Assembly: GCA_023132135.1 (NCBI GenBank)
Contig: JAGLYR010000067.1
Span: forward strand, 1 to 12,015
DNA length: 12,015 bases
DNA from: Candidatus Eiseniibacteriota bacterium
GTDB taxonomy: Bacteria; Arandabacterota; Arandabacteria; JAGLYR01
Direction: 5' to 3'
The number at the start of each line of letters is the position of its first letter. Within the stretch, counting starts at the first letter, position 1. Under the pieces are notes generated by a model. The model saw only the letters and a program-made list of their open reading frames with translations, did no database searches and had not been told where the DNA came from. This document shows positions 1,750 through 11,112 of the stretch, in pieces. The position numbers and the translations under genes are program-made.

Positions 1750-2340
1750 ATGACTGGCCTGGTTATTCTCCTGATCATAGTCGGAGTAGTCTTTCTGTCC
1801 TTCATCGGCATATACAACCGCCTGGTGTCGGCGAGAAACAGGTTCAAGAACGCGTTTGCGCAGATTGACGTGCAACTGAAGCGCCGGTACGATCTCATTC
1901 CCAACCTCGTGGAGACCGCCAAGGGATACCTGAAACATGAGCGCGAGACCCTCGAGGGCGTGATCAAGGCGCGGAATGCCGCGATGGATGCAAGCAACCG
2001 CGCATCGGCAAGCCCCGGGTCGCCCGAGGCGATGAAAGGACTCTCCGAGGCGGAAGGCGCCCTGACCGGCATGCTCACCCGGTTCTTTGCGTTGTCCGAG
2101 GCGTATCCCGACCTCAAGGCCAATCAGACCATGAGCCAGCTCATGGAGGAGCTCACCTCCACAGAGAACAAAATCTCCTTCTCCCGGCAGGCGTACAACG
2201 ACTCGGTCATGAACTACAACATCACGCGGGAGAAGTTCCCCAACACTGTCGTGGCGGGGATGTTCAGTTTCACAGCGGCCGAGCTGCTGGAAGCAACCGA
2301 GTCCGCGGAGGAGCGGAAGGCACCGAAAGTGGAGTTCTAG
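1750..2340 (+). CDS. lemA: LemA family membrane-anchored protein
   Basis: The 196-residue protein has the standard LemA layout: an N-terminal transmembrane helix (about 3-22) with almost no cytoplasmic tail, then a long helical domain. The family signature sits at about 34-54: NAFAQIDVQLKRR followed by YDLIPNLV. The length is typical. LemA proteins are known as inner-membrane proteins often encoded beside M48/HtpX-type proteases. Their biochemical role is poorly defined, and links to proteolysis or envelope homeostasis are proposed. The start is supported by GGAAGGGAG ending 5 bp before ATG. The M48 gene begins 3 bp after the stop, so the two are certainly co-transcribed and probably translationally coupled. 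Family assignment is secure. The function in this organism is inferred from context. Confidence 0.95.
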   Translation: MTGLVILLIIVGVVFLSFIGIYNRLVSARNRFKNAFAQIDVQLKRRYDLIPNLVETAKGYLKHERETLEGVIKARNAAMDASNRASASPGSPEAMKGLSEAEGALTGMLTRFFALSEAYPDLKANQTMSQLMEELTSTENKISFSRQAYNDSVMNYNITREKFPNTVVAGMFSFTAAELLEATESAEERKAPKVEF

Positions 2341-2343
2341 CTC

Positions 2344-4257
2344 GTGAATTTCTTTGAACACCAAGATGAGGCGCGCAGCAAGACCACGCAGCTGGTGTTT
2401 CTCTTCGCCGTTGCAGTGGCCGGCATCGTCGTCGCCCTCTACTTCGCCAGCCGGATTGTCCTCAGGTACGGAATGTCGAACTCCGCAGCGCCGATGCAGG
2501 TGCCGTGGTGGGATACGCAAGGCTTCGTGACAATCGCAGTCCTGGGTGTGGCCTTCATCGGGCTGGCCAGTCTCACCAGAATGCAATCTCTGAAGGGCGG
2601 AGGAAGCAAGGTGGCCACGATGCTGGGCGGCCGGATTGTCAATCCAAACACAACGGACTCCAGCGAACGCCGGCTTCTCAACATCGTCGAAGAGATGGCC
2701 ATCGCTTCGGGGATCCCCGTCCCACAGGTCTACGTCCTTGACCAGGAGAAGGGCATCAACGCGTTTGCCGCCGGGCATTCCACGAGCGACGCCATTGTTG
2801 CCGTCACGCGCGGGACTCTGGACCAGCTCAACCGCGACGAGCTGCAGGGCGTGATCGCCCACGAGTTCAGCCACATCCTCAACGGCGACATGCGCCTCAA
2901 CATCCGCCTCATCGGCATCCTGTTCGGGATCCTTGCCATGGCGATCATCGGGAGGATCCTCACCCAGGCCATGTTCTTCTCGGGAAGAGGCTCGAAGAAG
3001 GGCGGCGGCCCGGCAGCCATGGCGCTGATCGGCGTCCTGCTGATCCTCATCGGCTACATCGGCGTTCTCGTGGGGCGGATGATTCAGAGTGCCGTGTCCC
3101 GCCAGAGGGAGTTCCTGGCCGATGCCTCGGCCGTTCAGTTCACCCGCAATCCAGCGGGAATCGCGTCGGCCCTCAAGAAGATTGGAGGCTACCGCGGCGC
3201 ATCCTACATCCAGTCGCCCAAGGCCGAGCAGGCGAGCCACATGTTCTTCGGCCAGGGCAGGAAACTCAGCTTTCTGACCAGTGTTTTCTCTACTCATCCG
3301 CCCCTGGCGCAGCGGATCCGGCGCATCGATCCCGCCTTTGACGGGGAATCCCTGGAGACCCGCGCCGGGCCGGACGGAGCAGCGGGCGGCCCCCGGGCCG
3401 CCGTCATGGGACTCGCCGGCGCCGGCACCGTGACGATGGATCCGAGCCGGATTACTGCGGCTGTCGGCAGTCCCACGGCCGAGCATCTGGCCGCCGTCAG
3501 CGCCATTCTCAAGCAGATCCCCGATCCCCTGATCGCGGCAATCTCCACGCCCGCCGGAGCGATGTCCGCTGCCTACGCGCTGCTCCTGGATCGGGATTCG
3601 GCGCAGCGCGAGCAGCAGATCCATCTCCTGAAGAAATCCGACAGCTCCGACATCGCCGATGCCGCCATGCGCCTGTACCCGGAAATAGAGAAACTTGATC
3701 CCCGGGCCCGGTTGCCGCTCGTCGATCTTGCCATGCCGGCGCTGAGGGGTCTGTCCTACGAAGCCCGGGACCGTTTCCTGTCGCGGATCGAGATGCTGAT
3801 CCAGGCCGACGAGAAGGTGAGCCTCTTCGAATTCCTGGTGCAGTGGATGATTGCCTTCCGCCTGGGATATGCCGACCGACCACCTGCCAGGATCAGGTTC
3901 CGCTCTCTTGGCCCCGTGCAGAAGGACCTGTCGATTGTGCTCAGCGCCCTCGCTCGGGCCGGAAGCCCCAAGGATGCCGAGGCTGCCCGGAGTGCGTTCG
4001 ATCTTGCCGTCCGTCGAGTGATCGATCCCCGGCGTGTGTCCCTTCCCTTTGTGCCCGACGCGGGTTTCGCGGCGGTGGGAAAGGCGTTCGATCGCTTTAT
4101 GCAGTCGACGTTCGAAGTGAGACAGAAGGTGATCGAGGCGTGCGCTTTTTGCGCGCTCGCCGACCGCACGGTGACGGTGGAAGAGGCGGAGATCCTGCGG
4201 GTGGTGTCGCTGGCGCTGGACTGTCCGTTGCCGCCGTTCCTTCGGGATGCCGGATGA
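2344..4257 (+). CDS. M48 (HtpX-like) membrane zinc metalloprotease with long C-terminal extension
   Basis: The 637-residue protein starts with GTG, 3 bp after lemA. The N-terminal half is an M48 peptidase: transmembrane segments at about 17-40 and 61-78, the zinc motif HEFSH at 173-177, further hydrophobic segments at about 187-208 and 224-245, and the third ligand in SRQREFLAD (E256). Catalytic residues look intact. M48 enzymes of this type degrade damaged membrane proteins at the inner membrane. HtpX itself is about 290 residues, so roughly residues 345-637 are extra. That part is rich in Ala and Leu, has no hydrophobic spans, and ends with a TerB-like pattern (TVTVEEAEILRVVSLAL, then PLPPFL). 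The extension may be a regulatory or substrate-binding domain (inference). The stop lies 16 bp from the convergent phosphatase gene and no terminator hairpin is visible between them. Confidence 0.95.
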   Translation: MNFFEHQDEARSKTTQLVFLFAVAVAGIVVALYFASRIVLRYGMSNSAAPMQVPWWDTQGFVTIAVLGVAFIGLASLTRMQSLKGGGSKVATMLGGRIVNPNTTDSSERRLLNIVEEMAIASGIPVPQVYVLDQEKGINAFAAGHSTSDAIVAVTRGTLDQLNRDELQGVIAHEFSHILNGDMRLNIRLIGILFGILAMAIIGRILTQAMFFSGRGSKKGGGPAAMALIGVLLILIGYIGVLVGRMIQSAVSRQREFLADASAVQFTRNPAGIASALKKIGGYRGASYIQSPKAEQASHMFFGQGRKLSFLTSVFSTHPPLAQRIRRIDPAFDGESLETRAGPDGAAGGPRAAVMGLAGAGTVTMDPSRITAAVGSPTAEHLAAVSAILKQIPDPLIAAISTPAGAMSAAYALLLDRDSAQREQQIHLLKKSDSSDIADAAMRLYPEIEKLDPRARLPLVDLAMPALRGLSYEARDRFLSRIEMLIQADEKVSLFEFLVQWMIAFRLGYADRPPARIRFRSLGPVQKDLSIVLSALARAGSPKDAEAARSAFDLAVRRVIDPRRVSLPFVPDAGFAAVGKAFDRFMQSTFEVRQKVIEACAFCALADRTVTVEEAEILRVVSLALDCPLPPFLRDAG

Positions 4258-5465: not shown

Positions 5466-5647
5466 TAGCCTGCGTTTCTCACCAGGTTTCGTCGCGAGGG
5501 GCCGGGGCATGTGGCGAGAGGTCCCTTTGGACTGAGTCGCTCCCGGAAGCGTAGCCTTGTGCTACGCTGAGGAAGCGACGAGGGAAAAGGGGTCTCGCAG
5601 CCCATGCCCCGGCACCGTAGCAGAAAACTGGTGAGAAATGCAGGCTA
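5466..5647. repeat. 182-bp imperfect palindromic element (MITE-like)
   Basis: The whole element is symmetric about position 5557. Matching blocks are TAGCCTGC/GCAGGCTA (5466-5473, 5640-5647), TTTCTCACCAG/CTGGTGAGAAA (5475-5485, 5628-5638), GCCGGGGCATG/CATGCCCCGGC (5501-5511, 5603-5613), GTCGCT/AGCGAC (5536-5541, 5574-5579) and AGCGTAGC/GCTACGCT (5548-5555, 5561-5568). It has no reading frame of its own and no visible target-site duplication. Its right end supplies the TAG stop codon of the first DUF3795 gene. Confidence 0.85.
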
Positions 5648-5974
5648 GTCTCGTAGCGCATCCAGCGCAGTACGCGCGTCGGGAGCCAGCGCGAAGAACT
5701 TCTCGAGCGTGTCACAGGCATAGTCGTCGCACGCCGCGCAGTTCGGCACTGCCTTTGCCATCGCGCACTTCCGGACTTCGCACATCTCCGAGCAGTAGAA
5801 GAACTTCCGCCCTTCGGAGGAGCACCCGTCACAGTTGATATGCTCGGGTTTGATGTCGGCCCCGTACTGCGCCGACCATTGCTTGGCTACGGCAGCTCGC
5901 TTGTCATCATCATCTGCCTGTGTGGCCAGGTAGCCATCGCATTTGGAACAGTCCAGTCCGCAATAGGCAATCAC
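5645..5974 (-). CDS. DUF3795-family cysteine-rich protein
   Basis: This 109-residue protein opens with the DUF3795 signature IAYCGLDCSKCDGY (C5, C9, C12). It has further cysteines at C48, C51, C61, C65, C70, C79, C82 and C87, eleven in all, spaced like a metal or Fe-S binding scaffold. The family is uncharacterised, and its members are small, soluble and often found in anaerobes. The start is GTG at 5974, supported by AGGAG about 8 bp upstream. It follows the second DUF3795 gene by 25 bp, so the two form an operon reading leftward. The stop codon lies in the terminal bases of the 182-bp palindrome, so insertion of that element may have set or shortened the C terminus. Family assignment is firm. 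Function is unknown. Confidence 0.85.
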   Translation of the reverse strand: MIAYCGLDCSKCDGYLATQADDDDKRAAVAKQWSAQYGADIKPEHINCDGCSSEGRKFFYCSEMCEVRKCAMAKAVPNCAACDDYACDTLEKFFALAPDARTALDALRD

Positions 5975-5999: not shown

Positions 6000-6464
6000 C
6001 TACTTGCCCACGTTGGACGCCCAGTGTTTTTTCCCCTCCAGAAACGCCTTCATCCCCTGGCGCTTGATCTTTCTCAGATTCTTCAGATGCGCGCCGCCGT
6101 GGTTCGTCCTGAGGAAATCCATCTTCTTGCAGGTTTCGAACTCATCGCATTCCCAACAACCCTCGAGCTCCTTCTTCCGGGCACACGTCCTGATCTTGCA
6201 GTAGGGATCGCCGCCGCCGCCCCGGCAGGTCCTTTTGCAGCGCAATTTCACCATGACCCCGAGGGCATCATAGCATTCGGGGTAGTGCTTCAGGGCGCTG
6301 AAGAAGGAAATTCCGGACATGGCTTCCGCTGTTATCGCGAACTTTGCCTGTCTCAGCTCCTTCCTGAGGTCCCTTGCCAGGTCGGCAATCTTGCCCTGGT
6401 AAGCAAAGCAGTCTCCGCAGTACAGGCCGCAATATGCGACCATCTTTCTACTGGGTCCGGCCAT
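6000..6464 (-). CDS. DUF3795-family cysteine-rich protein, longer paralogue
   Basis: The 154-residue protein carries the same opening signature (MVAYCGLYCGDCFAY, with C12, C16, C19) and eight more cysteines (C64, C76, C80, C89, C94, C103, C106, C112). The C-terminal 40 residues are Lys-rich and have no counterpart in the neighbour. AGGAGG lies 9 bp before the ATG at 6464. The internal ATG seven codons later has only a weak site, so the longer start is preferred. It is the first gene of a two-gene minus-strand unit and is a diverged duplicate of its neighbour. Metal binding is an inference from the cysteines. Function is unknown. Confidence 0.85.
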   Translation of the reverse strand: MAGPSRKMVAYCGLYCGDCFAYQGKIADLARDLRKELRQAKFAITAEAMSGISFFSALKHYPECYDALGVMVKLRCKRTCRGGGGDPYCKIRTCARKKELEGCWECDEFETCKKMDFLRTNHGGAHLKNLRKIKRQGMKAFLEGKKHWASNVGK

Positions 6465-6751: not shown

Positions 6752-6890
6752 GGCCGGAAGCGGGTCCGGATATCAGGATCGAGGCTACGGCGCCTATCTT
6801 CTACGCACCAGGAGTTCCCACCCTCCTGACCCGGCTGCACTCCCGCAATCGTCGGAGCCAAGAGCCTGATATCCGGACCCGCTTCCGGCC
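6752..6890. repeat. perfect 26-bp inverted repeat around an 87-bp core
   Basis: Positions 6752-6777 and 6865-6890 are exact reverse complements (GGCCGGAAGCGGGTCCGGAT plus ATCAGG). The 87-bp core encodes nothing recognisable. The right arm ends 13 bp beyond the stop codon of the UbiB-like gene, so the structure marks the 3' end of that operon. It could be a small non-autonomous element or an RNA-stabilising fold. No T-tract is present. Confidence 0.8.
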
Positions 6891-6903: not shown

Positions 6904-8598
6904 CTACATCCTCCCGTGTCTCAGTATAGAAATGACCAACCCGAAACCCATGGCGCCGGCGACGACAAAACCCGCCAGACCAATAACAGGTATCTCGTGC
7001 CATCTCGGCGGGATACCGGAAAGGACGATGAGGGCGGAGCCGATCACCAGGGATGCCAGGACAATCGCAAACGCAATGCGATTGCTGATCCGGTCATGGG
7101 CGGACAACATCGGCTCCAGACCTCGATGTTCGAACTCTATCCTCACCTTGCCGCGTCTTGCCTGCCTGAGTATCTCGCGCAGTTCCCCTGGGATCTCCTG
7201 GAAAAGGTGAATGAGTTCACCGCCGGAACTGAACAGGTCTTCCGCAATCCGTGCCGGATGTACCCGGCTCCATTGGATGCGTCGGACAACGGGAGCCGCC
7301 TGCTTCACAGCATCGAAATCAGGATCCAATACGCGCCCGAGCCCCTCCACCGTGCTGAGGGCCTTGATCATCAGGAAAAGATCCGGAGGGACGCGCAGCC
7401 GGTGCCTTGCGGCCATTTCCAACAGCTGCTGGATGAGCTTCCCCAGCTCAAGGTCTTTCAACGGCTTGTACAAGTGCTCGTCCATGATCCCGGCCACGTC
7501 TCTCTCCAGGGAATCGCGGCCTGGTTGCTCGTCCCAAATGGTGAGCTTGAGCAGGTAGTCGGCCGCCTTTGATTCATCCCGGCGAGCAACGCTCATGAGC
7601 AAATCGGCGAAGTTCTCCCGGTGCTGCCGGCTGAGGCGGCCCATCATCCCGAAATCCAGGTAGCAGATAACGTTGCCGGGGAGAATGAAGATGTTGCCCG
7701 GATGGGGATCTGCGTGGAAAAAGCCATGCACAAACACTTGTTTCATGATCAGGTCAAACCCGCGGCGAGCGATCTCGCGTCTGTCGAGCCCTTCCCTTTC
7801 CAGTCGCTCGATCTCGGAAGCTTTGATACCACTCACGTATTCCATCGTGAGCACCCGACCGGTTGTGGCTTCCCTGTGAATCCGGGGGACGCGGACCCTG
7901 GTATCGCCATCGAACTGCAGGGCAAACCGTTCCGTGTGAGCTGCCTCGAGCCTGTAGTCGAGTTCCTTTTCCAGCGTGCGCGCGAACTCCTCCACTATTC
8001 GCGTAGGTTGCTGGATCTCCCAACCCTTCAGGTGCTTCTCCATGAGGGTAGCCAGATGCAGCATGATCTCCAGGTCGACTCCAACGGTCTTCTGTATCGC
8101 AGGCCGCTGAACCTTCACCACCACTTCCTCCCCACCCGCGAGCCGGGCCCTGTGAACTTGCCCGATGGAAGCCGCTGCCAGCGGACGTTCATCGAAGGAC
8201 CCGAATACCTGCTCCAAGGGTTTGTCCAACTCGGCCTCAATGATCTCCCTTGCTTCGGAGAAGGAAAAGGCCGGCACCTGATCCTGCAACTTGGCCAATT
8301 GCTGGATAAGCTCGACCGGCAACAGGTCGGGGCGGGTGGAGAGGATCTGCCCCATCTTGACGAACGTGGGACCGAGTTCTTCCAGCGCCATCCTTATCCT
8401 CTCGGCCCTCGAGAAGGACTCGATCCTCTCTCGCTGTTTGCGGGGAATCATCCGCAGGCCGATCTCCAGATGCTGTTCCATTTTCAGGCTGTCTACCAGA
8501 TCTTCGAATCCATACGTGAAAAGGACTGCGAGGATCTGGCGGTAGCGCTGGATATGCCGATACGTCCGGCCTATTGTCCCAATCCTGCGGATGAACAT
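6904..8598 (-). CDS. UbiB/ABC1 (AarF/ADCK) atypical kinase family protein
   Basis: This 564-residue protein is a full-length UbiB-family member. It has the KxGQ motif in FVKMGQILSTRPDLLP (K81-Q84), the Ala-rich nucleotide loop AAASIGQVHRA (141-151) in place of a Gly-rich loop, the invariant lysine K162 in VVVKVQRP, the catalytic-loop equivalent HADPHPGNI (295-303) and the metal motif LDFG (314-317). Two transmembrane helices close the C terminus (about 509-527 and 537-558). Characterised relatives (UbiB, Coq8/ADCK) are membrane-bound ATPases needed for ubiquinone assembly or isoprenoid-lipid extraction, with little protein-kinase activity. AGGAA lies 7 bp before the ATG. It is the last gene of a four-gene unit, 43 bp after the phasin-like gene. 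No ubi or men gene is present here, so a quinone role cannot be assumed. Confidence 0.93.
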   Translation of the reverse strand: MFIRRIGTIGRTYRHIQRYRQILAVLFTYGFEDLVDSLKMEQHLEIGLRMIPRKQRERIESFSRAERIRMALEELGPTFVKMGQILSTRPDLLPVELIQQLAKLQDQVPAFSFSEAREIIEAELDKPLEQVFGSFDERPLAAASIGQVHRARLAGGEEVVVKVQRPAIQKTVGVDLEIMLHLATLMEKHLKGWEIQQPTRIVEEFARTLEKELDYRLEAAHTERFALQFDGDTRVRVPRIHREATTGRVLTMEYVSGIKASEIERLEREGLDRREIARRGFDLIMKQVFVHGFFHADPHPGNIFILPGNVICYLDFGMMGRLSRQHRENFADLLMSVARRDESKAADYLLKLTIWDEQPGRDSLERDVAGIMDEHLYKPLKDLELGKLIQQLLEMAARHRLRVPPDLFLMIKALSTVEGLGRVLDPDFDAVKQAAPVVRRIQWSRVHPARIAEDLFSSGGELIHLFQEIPGELREILRQARRGKVRIEFEHRGLEPMLSAHDRISNRIAFAIVLASLVIGSALIVLSGIPPRWHEIPVIGLAGFVVAGAMGFGLVISILRHGRM

Positions 8599-8641
8599 GC
8601 TGCGGTTCCTTTCGAGAGAAACAGATGAACTGCCGGAGGAC

Positions 8642-8947
8642 TTACTCCTGACCCGCCGCCATGTTCTTCTCGATACGCTCGATCCTCGCCGTCAGCTGAG
8701 TGATATCGTCCCTGGTTGCGAGGCTCATCGCATTCAGTGATTCGCGCACCGTCTGTCGCACCTGTGCCTCGAGAGTTTTCCTCGTTGCCTCAGATTTCTG
8801 GAGCAGCTCATTGACCAGCTCTTTTCCTTCCTTCTCGGTTACTTCTCCCTTTGCGACGAGCTCTCCGACCAGTTCCTCCACCTTCTCCCTCGTCATCGCG
8901 GCCACTCCTACCGCAGCCAGCATCGTCTTCCGAACAAGACCGAACAT
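8642..8947 (-). CDS. small phasin-like coiled-coil protein
   Basis: The 101-residue protein has a hydrophobic N-terminal stretch (about 3-18), then an almost entirely helical, charged body. It ends in ATRDDITQLTARIERIEK (77-94), whose I82, L85, I89 and I92 make a 3-4-3 heptad. This layout matches the phasin/PhaF-like family of granule- or membrane-associated helpers. The C-terminal pattern is also close in style to UbiK/BMFP proteins, which assist ubiquinone enzymes. The ribosome binding site AGGGAGGT is strong. It sits 15 bp after the radical SAM gene and 43 bp before the UbiB-like gene. No PHA synthase is in the window, so granule binding is unproven. A helper or adaptor of the adjacent UbiB-like protein is an inference from position only. 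Confidence 0.75.
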   Translation of the reverse strand: MFGLVRKTMLAAVGVAAMTREKVEELVGELVAKGEVTEKEGKELVNELLQKSEATRKTLEAQVRQTVRESLNAMSLATRDDITQLTARIERIEKNMAAGQE

Positions 8948-8962
8948 GTTCCACCTCCCTGG

Positions 8963-10396
8963 TTACGACCTGCCAACGTATTCACCCGCCCAGATCGGGT
9001 CCGTAATCCTCTTGAGATCCTGGCCGTACCGCACCATGCCCCGGCGGTAGCCGGCGTCACGGAGAGCGATAGCTGCTTCTCCGTTGATAGGCCTGGCGTT
9101 GCTGCGCAGAACCGCTTTCTCCGCCACCGCGAAATGATCCCGGATCACGCAGGGGCATAGCCAGTTACCCGTTGCCTCGGCCGGCCGAGCGTATCCGTAC
9201 TCATCCTGCCATTTTCTAATGTCCTTGAACAGCGGAGAATCAAGCGCCGTGTTGAGATTCCCTCCCTTTGAGTAGATGTCGTAGATGTTGTCCGTGGAGT
9301 ATGGCACGAAGGCACACGGGGTGATGTCGCCGTTCCAGTCGATATAGAAATATCCGCCCGGGCGGCCGGCGCAGATGCAGCCGTTGCTCGCCATCCCGCT
9401 GTTCCAGAAGTCCGCCATGAAGAGCTTCTGCTCTCGAACGAGGCGCCGCGTCCTGCGCAGCATTTCAGCGCGCTGCTCGGGAGTGACCATCAGTTCAAGT
9501 GACTGGCCGCGCCCGATGGGCATGTACTGGAACAGCCAACTGTAGACGGCGCTCTGTTCCCCGAAGTAGAACTCGGCAAAACGATCACTCGTTATCGTCT
9601 CCCAGTTGTTCCTCGTCGGCGTGGCGGACACACCAAACATGACACCGTGCCTGCGCAGGTTCTCAAAGGCGGTCAGGATTTTCCTGTGCACACCTTTCCC
9701 CCGCCTGGCATCCGTCTCTTCCTCGAATCCCTCCACTGAAACCGCCGGGGTGATGTTCCCGAGCTCCGCCATGCGCTTCGCCAGACTGTCGTCGATCAAC
9801 GTCCCATTGGTGTAGACCATGAACATGTCGGTTTCGTGCTTGGCCACGATATCGAGCAAGTCGCGGTTGCCATCTCGCCACAGGAAAGGCTCGCCCCCGG
9901 AAATCACGGTGAAATGCGAACCCCAAAGCTCCTGTTTCTCCGTGAGGATTCTGTCAAAGGTGTCGAAGTCCAGGCTCGCGTGGTTTCCGGGATCGCTTTC
10001 CGCGTAGCATCCGACACAGCGGAGGTTGCACCTTCCGGTCGGACTCACCAACACGAACAGGGGAGGCGCAAAACCCAGCACTCGGGTGGTCTCTTCGACC
10101 TGTCTCCTGTTCAGAACTACCTGGTCCAGGAAAACCTTGATCAGACGTTTGCGGACGTTCTTTGCAATCAGCCCGCGCTCGAGCGCACGGTCGAAGCCGT
10201 ACAGTAACCCCATAAGATAGCCGTGCTTGTCTTCCTGCACACCGCGGGGGCGGTTGTCCGCGTTTTCCTGGACCAGCACCCGGTACGACTTGTTTTCGAT
10301 CCTGGCGAGGATCGCGTTCCTGACGTGACGCTCACTCGCGAGGAGACCGACGAGCTCCGCGAATCCCCCGCCTTTGAGAACGTTCCGAATGTTCAT
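8963..10396 (-). CDS. radical SAM protein with cysteine-rich C-terminal (SPASM-like) domain
   Basis: The 477-residue protein has the radical SAM cluster motif CNLRCVGC (C123, C127, C130), which binds a [4Fe-4S] cluster and S-adenosylmethionine. It also has the SAM-binding GGEP (167-170) and a YTNGT strand (195-199). About 110 residues precede the barrel, longer than usual. After the barrel come C340 and C342 (GCICAG), C361 (TPCAF), and C414 and C416 (CPC), a plausible auxiliary Fe-S site of SPASM or twitch type. YIDWNGDITPCAF is typical of that region. Such proteins modify peptides, sugars or lipids. The substrate here is unknown and no small precursor peptide is evident. The start overlaps the TetR stop by 4 bp (ATGA), with GAGGGAG 9 bp upstream, so translation is coupled to the regulator. 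Confidence 0.9.
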   Translation of the reverse strand: MNIRNVLKGGGFAELVGLLASERHVRNAILARIENKSYRVLVQENADNRPRGVQEDKHGYLMGLLYGFDRALERGLIAKNVRKRLIKVFLDQVVLNRRQVEETTRVLGFAPPLFVLVSPTGRCNLRCVGCYAESDPGNHASLDFDTFDRILTEKQELWGSHFTVISGGEPFLWRDGNRDLLDIVAKHETDMFMVYTNGTLIDDSLAKRMAELGNITPAVSVEGFEEETDARRGKGVHRKILTAFENLRRHGVMFGVSATPTRNNWETITSDRFAEFYFGEQSAVYSWLFQYMPIGRGQSLELMVTPEQRAEMLRRTRRLVREQKLFMADFWNSGMASNGCICAGRPGGYFYIDWNGDITPCAFVPYSTDNIYDIYSKGGNLNTALDSPLFKDIRKWQDEYGYARPAEATGNWLCPCVIRDHFAVAEKAVLRSNARPINGEAAIALRDAGYRRGMVRYGQDLKRITDPIWAGEYVGRS

Positions 10397-11022
10397 CTCG
10401 CTACGCTCCCTCTTAGAAACAGGTCGGTGATCATCTCTACATTCGTCTCGTATGGATGCCGCTCCGGGTCTTCCATCCAGCGGAGAAGGAATGCATTGCT
10501 TAGCCCCTCCAGCGCAACAGCCATGTAGTAGGGATCCAGGTTCCGAAGCACTTTCTTTCGGACACCTCTTTCCAGTACCGTCGCCAGATCTTTCAGCAGA
10601 TCGTCATACTGTTTCCGGATATCCTCGTCGAGACCTGCCTTGATGTTGAAACTAGCGCCACGCGTTTCACCGAAATAGAGACGCCATGTGGCGACGTTCT
10701 CCGCGAAGATCTCCGCCTTGGCCGAGACGTAACCTCGAATCGCAGCGGGCACATCGTTCCGCTTCTCCGGCTTCGTAAGGATTTCCTTCAGCGTGTCGTG
10801 GTACTCGGATACTTTCTCCATGATCAGGGTTTTGTAGAGGTCCTCCTTGTTCCTGAAAAACGAGTACAGAGTCCCAATTGCAAACTCCGCCCTCTTCGCA
10901 ATCTCCAGCATGGAAACATTGTGGTACCCCTTCTCCCCGAAAAGAACCAGCGCGCTGGCCAGCATCTCGCGCCGTCGTCTCAGCTTCTCCCTTTCCCGGC
11001 GCGGGATTTCTCTCTGCTCCAT
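10393..11022 (-). CDS. TetR/AcrR-family transcriptional regulator
   Basis: I place the start at 11022, giving 209 residues, because GAGGGAG lies 7 bp upstream. An ATG 33 bp further out (11055) has no ribosome binding site. The N terminus carries the TetR helix-turn-helix: LASALVLFGEKGYHNVSM leading into LEIAKRAEFAIGTLYSFFRNKEDLY (about 21-63). The rest is a helical ligand/dimer domain whose sequence gives no ligand. The protein probably represses the operon it heads, since TetR proteins commonly control their own promoter and a twin-box operator candidate lies at 11079-11104. A very basic N terminus (R8-R19 region) is typical of regulators that control lipid or xenobiotic genes, but this is weak evidence. 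Confidence 0.92.
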   Translation of the reverse strand: MEQREIPRREREKLRRRREMLASALVLFGEKGYHNVSMLEIAKRAEFAIGTLYSFFRNKEDLYKTLIMEKVSEYHDTLKEILTKPEKRNDVPAAIRGYVSAKAEIFAENVATWRLYFGETRGASFNIKAGLDEDIRKQYDDLLKDLATVLERGVRKKVLRNLDPYYMAVALEGLSNAFLLRWMEDPERHPYETNVEMITDLFLRGSVAR

Positions 11023-11078
11023 CGCTTCACTCCCTCGTGATTGCACCTGTGGCATCCGGTCGTCTACTTATGAACGCT

Positions 11079-11112
11079 ACGTCATGTTATATAATCCGAC
11101 GTCACTTGTCAA
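11079..11112 (-). promoter_or_regulatory. promoter and candidate TetR operator for the four-gene operon
   Basis: On the minus strand, TTGACA (11112-11107) is a perfect -35 box, followed after 15 bp by TATAAC (11091-11086). Two TGACGT boxes, at 11104-11099 and 11084-11079, are exactly 20 bp apart, two helical turns. One sits in the spacer between the -35 and -10 boxes and one just after the -10, the usual place for a repressor. The short spacer is slightly below the ideal 17 bp. The promoter lies about 60 bp upstream of the TetR start. Confidence 0.6.

Follow-up and report, generated by a model that had tools for sequence, protein, structure and literature searches.

The window analysed here, a 12,015-nucleotide stretch of DNA from the genome of a Candidatus Eiseniibacteriota bacterium (G000, 96% complete), carries on its minus strand a predicted operon of four genes that encode, head to tail, a TetR-family repressor, a radical S-adenosylmethionine enzyme (rSAM), a small phasin-like helper protein and a UbiB-type ATPase. 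Sequence comparisons indicate that these four genes belong together as a genuine module, which also occurs in distant bacterial lineages. Our reading, to which we assign a probability of about one half, is that the module is a dedicated, self-regulated operon that would remodel a hydrophobic membrane lipid other than a quinone.

A contig scan with the rSAM protein yielded 22 loci from Eisenbacteria, Planctomycetota, WOR-3, UBP1, Calditrichota, Desulfobacterales and other bacteria. The TetR-rSAM-phasin-UbiB set recurs with or without a patatin gene: in Eisenbacteria patatin is inserted between the phasin and UbiB genes, Planctomycetota keep the exact order of the window, and further lineages have the set as well. 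Because these first loci had been fetched by similarity, a less biased sample of 386 genomes spread over the domain was taken, which contained 20 orthologous rSAM loci in 18 genomes. Within 8 kb of rSAM, TetR was encoded at 9 of these loci, UbiB at 6, and a phasin-like protein and patatin at 5 each; one or more of UbiB, phasin and patatin were found near 10 of the 20, with some small contigs hiding the neighbours. A UbiB label on one further locus (L049, E 5e-6) was judged spurious and left out of the counts. None of UbiB, phasin-like protein or patatin occurred at the 15 loci of the broader rSAM paralogue group. At a rough chance of ~1% per locus, the proximity of UbiB to rSAM corresponds to P ~6e-8 for loci that are not fully independent, and a Fisher test of UbiB proximity in the orthologue versus the paralogue group gave only 0.02. 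The idea of a joint system, put forward in a preliminary description made from the letters of this DNA, hence survives the neighbourhood check, for this one orthologue group only.

The order of the genes varies between loci, which strengthens the functional reading. In L082 it is TetR-patatin-phasin-UbiB-patatin-rSAM, in L088 phasin-UbiB lies upstream of rSAM, and in L089 rSAM-UbiB is followed by PagL and LpxB. The arrangement in L054 reads TetR-MMPL-rSAM-open reading frame-LolA_like-barrel-phasin-UbiB-diacylglycerol-kinase-like-PlsC-methyltransferase. On the rSAM tree the UbiB/phasin label is scattered over the orthologue group and requires seven or more changes on supported branches; the association was therefore gained or lost many times, or it is ancestral and often broken. 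Across the relatives' loci the lipid-type neighbours comprise patatin, MMPL, LolA-like, outer-membrane barrel, diacylglycerol-kinase-like, PlsC and PagL/LpxB proteins, and a lipid role is supported by this context. At four Eisenbacteria loci (L033-L035 and L098) the module adjoins a divergent MMPL gene that has a TetR gene of its own as well as LolA-like and barrel genes, so that module and exporter look like a single neighbourhood. In two WOR-3 loci the gene before rSAM encodes, in place of TetR, a PhaR-type protein (PHB_acc_N) whose match to the phasin-like family is weak (L044:5191-5961 and L045:5287-5952), and CrtC-lipocalin and MMPL genes follow rSAM.

The region before the TetR gene contains TTGACA-17-TAACAT, its best sigma-70-like match (10/12 positions). 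The preliminary description had called this promoter strong. By itself the scan lacked significance (3 matches found against 1.8 expected), but the element recurs in orthologous loci, accompanied there by a tandem operator. Two GACGT-N4-TT units, 20 bp apart, overlap the -35 and -10 elements, and the same promoter-operator arrangement precedes TetR in most Eisenbacteria loci and in G161. The operator pattern had 0 matches in ~3 Mb of shuffled sequence with up to four mismatches allowed, and a reversed-pattern control gave no sites. A whole-genome scan of G000 returned one site. In G346, an Eisenbacteria genome in which the module is split over two contigs, exactly two sites were found in the genome, one before TetR-rSAM and the other before phasin-patatin-UbiB on another contig. 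This operator, common to two unlinked loci, is the strongest evidence that the rSAM gene and the phasin-UbiB genes work together, and it supports their functional linkage independently of the neighbourhood counts. Since the Planctomycetota and WOR-3 loci did not show the 20-bp period clearly, the operator claim is limited to the window, G161 and Eisenbacteria. The best NCBIfam match of TetR itself was the fatty-acid regulator FadR, far under its cut-off.

The phasin-like protein scored above the cut-offs of PF05597 (29.7 versus 28.8 bits) and NF047773 (41.9 versus 35 bits), well under that of TIGR01837, and gave a weak, below-cut-off match to the UbiK/BMFP family (E 6e-4). Its model is all-helical, and it is the sole detected phasin-family protein in G000. 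No match to polyhydroxyalkanoate (PHA) synthase (PhaC, PF07167) was obtained in G000 or ten relatives. Because the synthase is absent from these 11 genomes, the helper does not qualify as a usual phasin of PHA granules, and a role there was rejected. When the 386 genomes were searched with the phasin alignment, 105 of them held relatives, and the pairing with UbiB was counted on 40 of the best phasin loci, from which the starting set was excluded. UbiB was near the phasin gene in 19 of the 40, always on the same strand and with phasin first in 18. The two genes were directly adjacent in 18 of the 19, and the gap measured -4 to 54 bp in 18; L098 has patatin between them. Phasin-UbiB is thus a broad bacterial gene pair, much broader than the association with rSAM, and no discussion of it was found in the open-licence literature searched, where the four hits were incidental.

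UbiB carries all the family motifs (KxGQ, an AAASIGQVH loop, HADPHPGN and DFG), which are invariant or conserved in the alignment, and ends in a two-helix membrane tail. It could be argued that UbiB and its helper have an ordinary part in isoprenoid-quinone metabolism and that rSAM, unrelated to it, shares their operon by chance. The complete set of motifs fits this explanation, as does the score of 469.6 bits against TIGR01982, the equivalog of quinone-biosynthesis UbiB, although that score lies under the cut-off of 487.55 and the UbiB proteins of module relatives fall on both sides of it. UbiB is also the only full ABC1 protein in G000, where UbiA-family proteins are present, and two genomes with the phasin-UbiB pair (G120 and G257) do carry MqnA/D. 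However, neither MenD (PF16582) nor MqnA/D (PF02621) was matched in G000 or in eight further genomes that carry the module or the pair (G161, G346, G008, G335, G297, G269, G052 and G123), two of which, G161 and G008, are 72% and 59% complete. Because these markers were not detected, UbiB is unlikely to serve menaquinone on this sequence evidence, and that role was rejected. Two genomes without a UbiA-family match, G269 and G123, nevertheless keep UbiB together with rSAM or with exporter and phasin, and the operator shared by rSAM and phasin-patatin-UbiB at two unlinked loci is hard to square with a chance neighbourhood. We consider the quinone explanation unlikely.

The rSAM enzyme has its CX3CX2C motif at C123, C127 and C130, invariant in 28 aligned sequences. 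In the C-terminal part only C340, C361 and C416 are invariant in the same alignment, fewer than the seven auxiliary-cluster cysteines of a full SPASM domain, and the PF13186 score of 20.9 bits falls just short of the cut-off of 21.5. A helical N-terminal domain of ~108 aa precedes the core. The predicted model is confident (pLDDT 91), and its closest solved folds are the peptide maturases SkfB, SuiB and anSME (Z ~24). These same proteins are the top sequence matches, and together with the SPASM-like fold they would suit an enzyme that matures a peptide or protein, with the phasin-like protein as its substrate or carrier. Against this, the operon has no room for a precursor gene, since its genes overlap or lie no more than 43 bp apart (distant precursors were not searched), and the phasin-like family is common without rSAM, paired with UbiB instead. 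Its alignment shows no conserved cysteine and no core motif typical of a modified peptide. With the gene context pointing to lipids as well, we regard peptide maturation as quite improbable.

Tes, the archaeal radical SAM enzyme that joins lipid chains (PMC9433317, PMC8941075), ranked behind the peptide maturases both in fold (7tol/7tom, Z 17.4-17.8) and in profile (E 2.5e-6), and was set aside as a named identity for rSAM. The bacterial membrane-spanning-lipid synthase Mss also joins lipid chains and is reported to share the catalytic architecture of Tes (PMC13274423); its homologues have been assigned by E <= 1e-30 and identity > 30% (PMC13274423, PMC11868695). An Mss-like rSAM would join acyl chains tail to tail, with UbiB, the helper and patatin serving the synthesis and turnover of bolalipids. 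Mss couples acyl chains in many, mostly anaerobic, phyla (PMC13274423, PMC11868695), the rSAM paralogue group (34-43% identical) is similarly widespread, and the module sits in lipid gene contexts. Yet Tes is not among the closest folds of rSAM, and a fully supported branch sets the module rSAM group apart from the widespread paralogue group; for Mss, known here by description only, we hold this identity to be improbable. The neighbours of the paralogue group are mixed (MatE, TldD/PmbA, cupin, LPG synthase TM region), and no single pathway emerges from them. Plasmid-borne relatives of rSAM are distant homologues only, on Escherichia albertii, Klebsiella and Methanosphaera plasmids, and the two plasmid contexts viewed were uninformative, except that the Methanosphaera copy is immediately preceded by a TetR gene. 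One such relative (L095:2254-3633, WP_273821943.1, 32%) lies on a conjugative IncF plasmid of Escherichia albertii, an unusual place for an enzyme of this kind. The substrate of rSAM is not deducible from its fold, and it is gene context and co-regulation, rather than any property of the enzyme, that carry the lipid reading.

In the preferred reading of non-quinone lipid remodelling, TetR would repress the operon from the tandem operator overlapping the -35 and -10 elements and would probably be released on binding a lipid or acyl-CoA ligand. The rSAM enzyme may then carry out chemistry on an unactivated carbon of a lipid or its chain. UbiB, anchored by its two C-terminal helices, would spend ATP on exposing or moving the hydrophobic substrate, as suggested by what is known of its family and by the gene pairing. 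The phasin-like coiled-coil protein could be its small membrane-surface partner, much as UbiJ and UbiK are for UbiB. In relatives, patatin may release or trim acyl chains, and an MMPL-LolA-barrel exporter might move products outward and complete the pathway. Going one step further, we tentatively suggest that UbiB and its phasin-like partner are an ancient lipid-handling unit outside quinone synthesis, which would present lipid to rSAM under a TetR switch, with patatin and the MMPL-LolA exporter as optional parts.

Several observations weigh against this reading. No substrate, ligand or lipid product was seen, the patatin and exporter genes are absent from the window, and the nearest structural neighbours of rSAM act on peptides. 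With 14 of the 20 orthologous rSAM loci lacking a nearby UbiB, the association is loose. G000 has five UbiA-family proteins, so that some prenyl lipid may be made, and the quinone survey covered the menaquinone markers, ubiquinone genes not being typed one by one.

The layout of the locus is given in Table 1. All four open reading frames named in the preliminary description were found in place with matching domains, and the packing it reported, a 4-bp overlap between TetR and rSAM followed by gaps of 15 bp (rSAM to phasin-like) and 43 bp (phasin-like to UbiB), was confirmed from their coordinates. Made by profile match, the domain assignments of TetR, radical SAM and ABC1 are firm; that of phasin is modest. 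The TetR start at 11022, preceded by GAGGGAG, looks better than the alternative at 11055 offered by the open reading frame finder. Overall, the earlier interpretation is partly supported: the lipid role is backed by gene context, and a quinone role is disfavoured.

Table 1 Coordinates of the operon and its control region in the window.
Feature	Position	Strand	Match or sequence
TetR-family repressor, first gene of the operon	10393-11022	minus	TetR_N 6e-15
Radical SAM enzyme, SPASM-like C-terminus	8963-10396	minus	Radical_SAM 4e-22
Phasin-like all-helical helper, 101 aa	8642-8947	minus	Phasin PF05597 8e-7
UbiB/ABC1 atypical kinase-like ATPase	6904-8598	minus	PF03109 (ABC1) 1.3e-84
Promoter and putative tandem operator	11072-11112	minus	TTGACA (-35) then GACGTCGGATTATATAACATGACGTAGCGTTC; two GACGT-N4-TT units, 20-bp period

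Just downstream of the UbiB stop codon lies a 41-nt inverted repeat (6752-6890, 88% complementary, 57-nt loop), a possible terminator or small mobile element. Further downstream of the operon, two different cysteine-rich DUF3795 proteins are encoded side by side on the minus strand (5645-5974 and 6000-6464). The remainder of the window includes a LemA-family gene and, directly behind it, an M48 peptidase gene with a long C-terminal extension (1750-4257), a common LemA-HtpX-like pair, and an arylsulfotransferase (ASST)-like protein (278-1558).

The molecular action of UbiB/COQ8 ATPases is a long-standing question, and nearly all work on it has dealt with quinone synthesis. In this module UbiB appears co-regulated with a candidate chain-modifying enzyme, in genomes without detectable menaquinone pathways. 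The module may thus allow the action of UbiB on a lipid other than a quinone to be tested in a natural setting, with the phasin-like protein, a regular neighbour across bacteria, as a candidate partner.

All component families of the module are known; neither their combination nor the pairing of phasin with UbiB seems to have been described in the open-licence literature searched, as the preliminary description had supposed for the system as a whole, and no description of Tes or Mss with TetR-phasin-UbiB was found there either. The helper shares with PHA granule phasins (PF05597, TIGR01837, NF047773) a family sequence match and an all-helical model, but differs from them in that its genome has no PHA synthase and its gene partner is UbiB. 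With the SPASM enzymes SkfB, SuiB and anSME, rSAM has the core fold and C-terminal cluster region in common; it departs from them in its three invariant C-terminal cysteines, its distinct helical N-terminal domain, its lipid gene context and an operon that contains no precursor peptide. Tes is a mid-ranking fold match only, and Mss, compared by description, has a similar spread over anaerobic phyla. The closest parallel for the UbiB half of the module is UbiB/COQ8 with UbiJ and UbiK. In Escherichia coli, ubiJ precedes ubiB, and UbiJ and UbiK assist UbiB in ubiquinone synthesis. The module has an ATPase of the same family with the same key motifs and a membrane tail, and likewise a small partner gene beside UbiB; it differs in that menaquinone genes were not detected, in that the partner is phasin-like rather than an SCP2 or UbiK protein, and in the presence of rSAM and TetR in the operon.

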